The translations under genes were made by a program, and so were the position numbers. Shown here one piece after another: positions 12,891 through 14,724 of a stretch of DNA of 64,000 bases (positions are counted from its first letter, which is position 1; the number at the start of each line of letters is the position of its first letter). The stretch is from Streptomonospora salina (GTDB lineage: Bacteria > Actinomycetota > Actinomycetes > Streptosporangiales > Streptosporangiaceae), in contig NZ_JACHLY010000001.1 in the NCBI RefSeq assembly GCF_014204715.1, positions 2,936,501 through 3,000,500 on the forward strand. The letters run 5' to 3'. The notes beneath the pieces are model-generated. The model was not told the DNA's origin. It did not search any database and worked only from the letters and a program-made list of their open reading frames with translations.

Positions 12891-13614
12891 CCCGTCCGTC
12901 GCGCATGCCGCAGCGCTGAGCGCCGCCGGGGCCGGTGAACCGGCCGGCCGGAGCGGCGCGCCGCCCCGGGTGCGATCCGCGCGGTACCTCCGGGTACCGC
13001 GGGATCCGCCCGGGGCTTCGTGCTGTCCGGGGCGTCATCCTTGTCCTGGTTCGCGGTTTTTATCTATTCTGTGGTGGAATAGCGAGAAAGTCGGATTGCC
13101 GGTTTCCGGCGATCGGATTTCGGTCTGGGTTCGGTGTCCGTGCACGAGGGTGTGTGCGCCGCACCTTCCGAGTTGACCGGAATATGGGTTGTCTGGGGTG
13201 TTTCGGGCGCCTTCCGGGGGTGTCGCGCTCCGTGGCCGCCGCGCTTATCGGACACCGGTGGCCCGCATTTTATGCTGCCTGATCAGGCGTTACTTCGGTG
13301 TGTAGTTGAGGTTGTGCTCGCCGATTTCTGTTATCGCCCTTTTTCTTGGAAAAAGCCCTGGCGTGCGGCGCGACGCTGTTAGCGTTGTCGATCAACGGCG
13401 CAAGGAAACCCGCCCCGGTTCTTCCCGGGGGTGCGCCGTCCGGATTCCACCGACGCGCGGGTGCGTTCGAACTCGTGCCCCCGCGCCGTCGCGGATGGTT
13501 CCGGTCACCCTGTTGTCCCCCTCGGGGCGACGGATCACTACCCCGCCTTAGGTGACGCCTCGCCTCCGAACGAACACGACCGGTGTTCGCGTCTGCGAAA
13601 GGTCATGCCTGAAC
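12891..13614. promoter_or_regulatory. Long upstream region of the chaplin-like gene
   Basis: A 724-base gap separates katA from the chaplin-like gene, the longest non-coding stretch in the window. The part from about 13050 to 13400 is clearly less GC-rich than the chromosome around it. Short open frames here have no codon bias and no homology I recognise. The only structure I can define is a 17-base hairpin at 13339-13355. Chaplin genes are typically under tight developmental control, so a large regulatory region or long leader is plausible. Confidence 0.5.
13339..13355 (+). other. AT-rich hairpin in the chaplin upstream region
   Basis: CTTTTTC-TTG-GAAAAAG forms a perfect 7-bp inverted repeat with a 3-base loop, about 260 bases before the chaplin start. 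Five consecutive A:T pairs are unusual in this genome. It could be a protein-binding palindrome or an RNA structure in a long leader. Confidence 0.4.
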
Positions 13615-14724
13615 ATGCACAAGCGCTTCTACACGTCCCTGTCCGCCTCGCTGCTGGCCGCCGGCCTGGTCGGGGCCGCACCGGCGACCGCCTTCGCCGA
13701 ACCCGAAAGCGACGGCTCGGGCGGGATCGCCTCCGGCAACCAGGTCAACGTGCCGGCTGACGTCAAGGCCGAACTGTGCGGCAACGCGCTGTCCGTCCTG
13801 GGGATCTCGAAGGCCGACTGCACCCGCGTCGCCGAGGTGCTCTACGCGTCGAGCGACGAGGGGCAGGACTCCCCGCAGACCGACGGCTCCGGCGGCATCG
13901 CCTCCGGCAACCAGATCAACATCCCCGTCGACGCCGCCCTGGACGTGTGCGGCAACTCCGCCGCGATCGGCGGTGTCGCCGAATCGGACTGCACCAGCGT
14001 GGTGAACAAGCTGGTCGAGGAGTCCGACGAGGGGCAGGACTCCCCCCAGACCGACGGCTCCGGCGGCATCGCCTCCGGCAACCAGATCAACATCCCCGTC
14101 GACATCGCCCTGGACGTGTGCGGCAACTCCGTCGCCGTGCTGGGCGCCTCGAAGTCCGAGTGCACCACCGTCGTGAACGTCATCGAGGAGTCGGGCGGCG
14201 GCGACGAGGGGCAGGACTCCCCGCAGACCGACGGCTCCGGCGGCGTCGCCTCCGGCAACCAGATCGACGTCCCCGTCGACGCCGCGGCCGACATCTGCGG
14301 CAACGCCGTATCGGTGCTGGGCGTCGCCGAGGCCCAGTGCCTGGAGACGATCTCCGACGACGGCGGTGAGGACGACCCGGGCAAGGACGAGCCCGGTGAG
14401 GAGACCGAGCCGCCCGAGGAGGGCGAGGAGACCGACGACCCGGACGAGCCGGGTGAGGACGGCCCCGGCGACGGCGACACGACGCCCTCGCCCGAGCCCA
14501 CCCCCGAGACCGGCGACGACACCACCCCGGACACCAAGCCGGCGCCCGAGGGCGACGACACCGACGCGTCCGGCGGCCTGCCGGTGACCGGACCGGCCCT
14601 GGGCGGTCTCGTCGCCGCCGCCGTGGCCGCCGTCGGCGGCGGTGGCGCCGCGATGGCCATCAGCCGCCGCCGCAAGGCCGCCGCGGTCGGTGCGCAGGAC
14701 ACCGCAGCCGGCACCGAGGAGTAG
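13615..14724 (+). CDS. Four-repeat chaplin-like surface protein with LPXTG sortase anchor
   Basis: This 369-aa secreted protein has a signal peptide (residues 1-28, ending ATAFA) and four chaplin-like domains at about residues 33-69, 90-126, 147-183 and 207-242. Each reads GSGG(I/V)ASGNQ(I/V)...P.D.....(L/V/I)CGN....C, with cysteine pairs C55/C69, C112/C126, C169/C183 and C228/C242. An acidic Glu/Asp/Pro-rich wall-spanning stalk (about 245-318) follows, then LPVTG (322-326), a hydrophobic helix and RRRK. This is a sortase substrate displayed on the peptidoglycan. Chaplins form amyloid-like hydrophobic coats on aerial hyphae and spores. Long Streptomyces chaplins that I know have two domains, so four is unusual. 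ATG 13615 directly precedes the signal peptide. No sortase gene lies nearby. Confidence 0.9.
   Translation: MHKRFYTSLSASLLAAGLVGAAPATAFAEPESDGSGGIASGNQVNVPADVKAELCGNALSVLGISKADCTRVAEVLYASSDEGQDSPQTDGSGGIASGNQINIPVDAALDVCGNSAAIGGVAESDCTSVVNKLVEESDEGQDSPQTDGSGGIASGNQINIPVDIALDVCGNSVAVLGASKSECTTVVNVIEESGGGDEGQDSPQTDGSGGVASGNQIDVPVDAAADICGNAVSVLGVAEAQCLETISDDGGEDDPGKDEPGEETEPPEEGEETDDPDEPGEDGPGDGDTTPSPEPTPETGDDTTPDTKPAPEGDDTDASGGLPVTGPALGGLVAAAVAAVGGGGAAMAISRRRKAAAVGAQDTAAGTEE
13855..14280 (+). repeat. Three direct DNA repeats inside the chaplin-like gene
   Basis: Segments of about 78 bases starting at 13855, 14026 and 14203 (period 171 then 177 bases) are almost identical. They encode DEGQDSPQTDGSGG followed by the SGNQ core. 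The first chaplin domain, starting near 13711, is more diverged. The pattern indicates recent internal duplication and a substrate for recombination that could change repeat number. Confidence 0.8.

Follow-up and report, generated by a model that had tools for sequence, protein, structure and literature searches.

A conserved four-domain variant chaplin bearing a sorting signal in Streptomonospora salina, a candidate wall tether for the chaplin layer

The open reading frame at positions 13615-14724 (+) of the window (the whole 64,000-nucleotide stretch of Streptomonospora salina DNA that was analyzed) encodes, in the window translation from its ATG, a 369-aa protein that is a member of Pfam family PF03777 but not a canonical ChpA-C long chaplin, and we therefore refer to it as a variant chaplin. 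Chaplin domains are the building blocks of the hydrophobic amyloid sheath that covers the hyphae of Streptomyces. Comparison with related genomes indicates that its four-domain form is a standing, old architecture of the family, not peculiar to the S. salina genome, and that the four domains are conserved distinct types in a fixed order, not interchangeable copies of one another. We consider it reasonably probable that the protein serves as a multivalent tether between the wall and the chaplin layer, anchored by its LPVTG signal and co-assembling with secreted chaplins.

The protein begins with a signal peptide (residues 1-28; 13615..13698, +), which was identified by visual inspection and could be aligned across 27 orthologs, the start methionine having been set by hand in 11 of them. 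It is followed by four chaplin domains, D1 (residues 35-72; 13717..13830), D2 (residues 92-129; 13888..14001), D3 (residues 149-186; 14059..14172), and D4 (residues 208-245; 14236..14349), all on the + strand, which scored 40.4, 40.9, 43.8, and 39.7 bits, respectively, against PF03777, were each recovered by our own domain profile, and are joined by linkers of 19, 19, and 21 aa. A proline-rich acidic stalk recognized by composition (residues 246-321; 14350..14577, +; 31 D+E, 2 K+R, and 14 P among 76 aa) leads to the LPVTG sorting motif (residues 322-326; 14578..14592, +), and the remainder of the sequence (14593..14724, +) comprises a hydrophobic helix, an RRRK tail, and the stop codon, aligned in 27 orthologs. 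Each part listed in a preliminary description of this gene (signal peptide, four CGN...C repeats, acidic Pro-rich stalk, LPVTG, helix, and RRRK) could thus be located. The mature protein has a charge of -59 and a GRAVY of -0.52. As regards the start codon, the open reading frame list opens this frame earlier, with the GTG at 13552, but the ATG at 13615 is the likelier start, because 26 of 27 orthologs keep the hexamer GAAAGG 7-13 nt 5' of the aligned ATG, usually at a distance of 12 nt. In the window, GAAAGG is included in the leader GCGAAAGGTCATGCCTGAAC (13595-13614), which directly precedes the start codon; a gap of mostly 12 nt is rather long for a ribosome-binding site. A scan for promoters and terminators found nothing.

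The assignment of the repeats to the chaplin family, which the preliminary description had proposed from their appearance, is borne out by profile searches. The whole protein matched PF03777 (ChpA-C) over four stretches with E = 4.9e-40 and 135.6 bits (cut-off, 21), and in a six-frame search of the genome each of the four domains exceeded that cut-off singly (39.7-43.8 bits). No other Pfam family matched the protein at E up to 1, no NCBIfam model reached its own cut-off, and a PDB sequence search gave no match at E up to 1. The cysteines of each of the four CGN...C pairs are 14 residues apart, and the eight cysteines, two per domain as in PF03777 and presumably disulphide-bonded, are invariant in all 27 orthologs. 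Among the 107 of 108 ortholog domains that were parsed (D2 of L036 was left out because its first GN is absent), the spacing is 14 in 106 and 12 in the remaining one, D2 of L014.

These domains depart from the Streptomyces type in several respects. A canonical chaplin domain, as described in the accessible part of PMC13251363, has three GN motifs 12-13 residues apart and two cysteines; in the S. salina protein the first two GN motifs are present and the third is absent. The third GN, which lies just before the second cysteine, occurred in none of the 107 ortholog cores versus 63 of 63 Streptomyces-type domains, a set chosen by its cysteine spacing of 18 and containing one domain from the window's family (L013). 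The mean net charge of the ortholog cores was -2.6, compared with 0 for 27 Streptomyces-type cores from single-domain ORFs and -1.0 for 36 from two-domain ORFs, and their mean GRAVY of 0.57 compares with 0.74 and 0.41, respectively; six short chaplins from other genera of the family had a charge of 0 and a GRAVY of 1.20. Members of Streptomonospora are halophiles, and the acidity of the protein may go with salt tolerance.

The nearest named relative is Streptomonospora alba, at 86% identity, followed by Streptomonospora sp. PA3 and S. mangrovi and then by species of Nocardiopsis, Murinocardiopsis, and Marinactinospora and one metagenome bin, which together make up a set of 12 named loci. Streptomonospora is placed in the Nocardiopsidaceae, to which we take Nocardiopsis, Murinocardiopsis, and Marinactinospora to belong likewise. 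The S. salina gene is flanked by genes for a catalase (Pfam, 620 bits) and a SURF1-family protein, and this neighborhood points to an old chromosomal locus because, in the fetched flanks, catalase recurs upstream in 9 of the 12 named loci and SURF1 downstream in 11 of the 12, at varying distances. Catalase had no match in the flanks of L043, L047, and L050, with only 467 bases available on that side of L047, and SURF1 had none in the fetched flank of L042.

The four-domain form was present in six of six Streptomonospora genomes. A 27-row profile of the four-domain region (A1) was searched against a sample of 250 genomes of the family, here a coded group wider than Nocardiopsidaceae, and gave matches of full length (from position 1-2 to position 215-216, at 290-370 bits) in 46 of the 250 genomes and 15 of 68 genera. 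When the best 30 of the 46 were recounted with our own domain profile, every one had four domains with two cysteines each, and 29 of 30 had L[AP]xTG near the end; in the exception, L104 (the genome of L035), the frame crosses an ambiguous base at that place. The remaining 16 were counted as four-domain from their coverage of the profile. Relatives with three domains and an LxxTG signal occurred in five fetched genomes (L144, L145, L146, L147, and L151), so that the count in related genera called for by the preliminary description gave four domains in 30 of the 30 best matches and three in these five. One of the five, from Nocardiopsis suaedae (L146 and L050 are one ORF), retains D1, D3, and D4 and represents a clean loss of D2. 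The gene is split into two frames in one metagenome bin (L051/L148), and genome G502 (L149) has a different four-domain ORF that lacks LPxTG and whose first domain is Cys-less.

The domains of the array have distinct identities. Each of the 108 domains (four from each of 27 orthologs) was compared with domains from other species or, for the six Streptomonospora, from other genera; its nearest neighbor occupied the same position in the array in 107 cases, the sole exception being one D2 that was nearest to a D3. We also built a quick maximum-likelihood tree of the ortholog domains and 25 other chaplin domains (52 columns, with 74 of 130 inner branches open), in which D1 formed one clade (support 100), D4 formed one clade (support 90), D2 and D3 were partly mixed (3 and 6 changes), and the added domains all fell outside the four-domain set (support 99). 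In L015, D2 is almost the same as D3, its score being slightly higher as D3 than as D2. Recent tandem amplification was rejected as the origin of the array given the agreement by position, the D1 and D4 clades, and the placement of the other domains outside. It is likely that internal duplication preceded the split of the genera and that the four positions have been kept since.

The comparison with Streptomyces used genus g85, which we took as Streptomyces on the basis of the spacing of 18 in its domains, the LAxTG form of its signals, and its closest plasmid records (19 of 25 from Streptomyces); the four-domain search as a whole covered the window's family and g85. Profile A1 gave some match in 196 of 199 g85 genomes, and none among the best ~150 matches listed was full length without stops; as the list is ordered best first, a four-domain form of g85 should top it. 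The match at L120, which spans positions 5-207 with stops, corresponds to a gene with two domains next to one with a single domain. Thus, no common occurrence of four-domain forms in Streptomyces, which would have told against the preliminary description, is evident among the g85 matches listed. That description had also stated that long chaplins of Streptomyces carry two domains, a form already in print (PMC3079736 and PMC13251363, in their accessible parts); the longest chaplin ORF has two domains in 16 of the best 20 g85 loci, so that the statement describes the usual case, but in the other 4 of 20 it has three. The S. salina protein resembles Streptomyces ChpA-C in being a secreted-type protein with tandem N-terminal Cys-paired chaplin domains and a long variable region, ending in a sortase signal, a helix, and a basic tail. 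ChpA-C, however, have two domains (three in those four loci), a cysteine spacing of 18 (the motif scan also shows a few stray CGN motifs with no cysteine nearby), the third GN, and LAxTG, whereas the S. salina protein has four domains with a spacing of 14, no third GN, LPVTG, and cores that are acidic relative to the Streptomyces type. With the short ChpD-H it shares a chaplin domain with a cysteine pair (ChpE excepted), but these have one domain, no anchor, and near-neutral cores (as measured on Streptomyces-type single-domain ORFs), in contrast to its four domains, anchor signal, and acidity. CwpA and CwpB of Actinoplanes missouriensis are likewise sortase-dependent hydrophobic wall proteins in morphogenesis, but lack chaplin domains according to the authors, in the part of PMC13251363 that was accessible.

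The S. salina genome encodes further chaplins. A two-domain chaplin (L082 9075-9962, -) has a cysteine spacing of 14 and LPVTG, as in the four-domain protein, but its domains are of another subtype and group outside the four-domain set (support 99). It is adjoined by a secreted five-domain chaplin-like protein (L082 7388-9199, -; genome position about 1.99 Mb) with SGN in place of CGN, no cysteine in its domains, and no LPxTG. Because ChpE of Streptomyces is likewise Cys-less (available text of PMC5618241 and PMC3079736), the five-domain protein could be a ChpE counterpart. A profile built from the family's domains additionally recovered a short chaplin (L155 9199-9510, -; G000:C1:1959205), which scores 18 bits against the Pfam cut-off of 21, so counts based on Pfam can miss short chaplins. 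The idea that the genome has no soluble chaplins, suggested by a Pfam search that found none, was rejected when this gene was found, and the published remark that long and short chaplins seem to occur together in all sporulating actinomycetes (PMC3079736, accessible part) therefore stands here. A further ORF with LPVTG (308 aa; L154 3269-4192, -; about 1.93 Mb), which the chaplin profile does not match, lies some 24 kb away from the gene for the short chaplin. The other five genomes of the genus show the same pattern, with frames holding four, two, and five matches (the last 502-596 aa) and at least one short frame; the pattern was scored by matches per frame, with sequences read for G002, G003, and G004 and the short ones for G002. 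Other genera of the family have chaplin ORFs with six, seven, or eight domains and 588-787 aa (L138-L143 and L150), among them L139 with eight PF03777 stretches (169 bits, Pfam). The first domain of these is Cys-less in seven of seven, and the rest are Cys-paired in six and mixed in L141; an LPxTG near the end was found in none of the seven (fetched family genomes).

The sorting signal of the S. salina protein is LPVTG and not the LAxTG of class E sortases, and those of its orthologs are LPVTG, LPLTG, LAVTG, or LALTG. The NCBIfam LAVTG anchor-domain model gave the protein 15.1 bits, below its cut-off of 27, and a genome search with Pfam Gram_pos_anchor found two genes, the two-domain chaplin and one other gene, the four-domain gene not being among them. 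Sortases of class E (one) and class F (two) are encoded in the genome. The class E enzyme (NF033747, 185.5 bits versus a cut-off of 160), a type found above cut-off in 26 of the 26 genomes examined, is most likely the sortase that acts on the protein. In the accessible part of PMC5148588, class E sortases are described as acting on LAxTG and as employing a conserved tyrosine. We found a tyrosine in the corresponding loop of 26 of 26 class E sortases (L158-L183), equating it with that residue by its place in the loop, outside any SrtE1 alignment. Since 16 of these genomes have LPxTG signals and 10 have LAxTG, class E enzymes here would either accept both signals or another sortase would act. 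The proposal that the choice of LP or LA tracks a switch of this tyrosine was rejected on the same count. In genomes G192 and G500 (g46), the signal is LPVTG, yet the sortase resembles that of LAVTG relatives.

We propose the tethering role on the model of the long chaplins of Streptomyces, for which the available text of PMC5618241 says that short chaplins co-assembling with long-chaplin domains contribute to tethering of the layer. In S. salina, the protein would be secreted and a sortase would join LPVTG to peptidoglycan, so that the four Cys-paired chaplin domains would be held off the wall on the acidic stalk; there they would co-assemble with the cell's own secreted chaplins (the short chaplin and the five-domain protein that lacks cysteines), and such co-assembly would keep the hydrophobic layer attached to the wall of the hypha. 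Four PF03777 domains, orthologs in 46 of 250 genomes, invariant cysteines, a kept domain order, sortases, and genes for partners (the short, the two-domain, and the five-domain protein) argue for this reading. Acidic cores (-2.6 versus 0, both in Streptomyces-type single-domain chaplins and in the six short chaplins from the family), the lack of the third GN, and an LPVTG signal in place of the class E LAxTG argue against it. Given the acidic cores and the missing third GN, co-assembly or amyloid formation is not to be assumed.

These same features invite a different account, in which the four domains fold as separate soluble non-amyloid modules and the protein acts at the wall surface as a hydrated, acidic adhesin or spacer that has kept the chaplin domain for binding. 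Strong net acidity (mature charge -59, GRAVY -0.52), the missing third GN motif, and four conserved distinct domain types in a fixed order, as expected of specific binding sites, would be at home in such a protein, but its cores, at a GRAVY of 0.57, lie between the Streptomyces-type two-domain (0.41) and single-domain (0.74) cores, and the same genome encodes soluble chaplin partners; on balance we regard this account as unlikely. The preliminary description had proposed instead a dense, cooperative, anchored amyloid nucleator, in which four domains per stalk would speed the start of fibrils relative to two. Four domains per chain and a sorting signal are real and conserved, and it is the domain number that makes this reading possible; however, that number stays at four in the orthologs counted and at three in a few, the domains are not interchangeable copies, and their cores are acidic. 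Moreover, the family's six- to eight-domain proteins have no LPxTG near the end in seven of seven cases, so high copy number is not tied to anchoring there, and we give the nucleator little credence. Distinct types in a fixed order agree no less well with dedicated docking positions than with a simple rise in copy number. Taken further, four fixed docking sites could form a position-coded template that orders the entry of chaplins (the short one, and the Cys-less five-domain one in the role of ChpE), a speculative extension that we think improbable; were it true, it would describe a chaplin apparatus made of multi-domain proteins rather than of many short ones.

Work on chaplins rests on Streptomyces, with its two-domain anchored and one-domain soluble forms, and Streptomonospora, Nocardiopsis, and their kin add to these a long-kept form of the anchored type with four non-interchangeable domains, beside Cys-less five-domain proteins. 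In the open-licence literature, outside which most subscription papers lie, we found no paper on four-domain chaplins, none that joins Streptomonospora with chaplin, and nothing on chaplin domain number in Streptomonospora and its relatives; the accessible part of PMC4255298 notes chaplin-like genes in Nocardiopsis, Thermobifida, and Streptosporangium and gives no domain counts. The family supplies a natural series of domain numbers, including the six- to eight-domain proteins, that could be used to learn whether attachment and assembly of the layer depend on how many domains a protein has or on which types, and the loss of D2 in Nocardiopsis suaedae is a natural deletion from which that question could start. 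PF03777 matches also occur in other families of the class, e.g., six in G206 and seven in G372, and a sequence of Nonomuraea gerenzanensis (NZ_LT559118.1) matched over 97% of the four-domain query with 40% identity.
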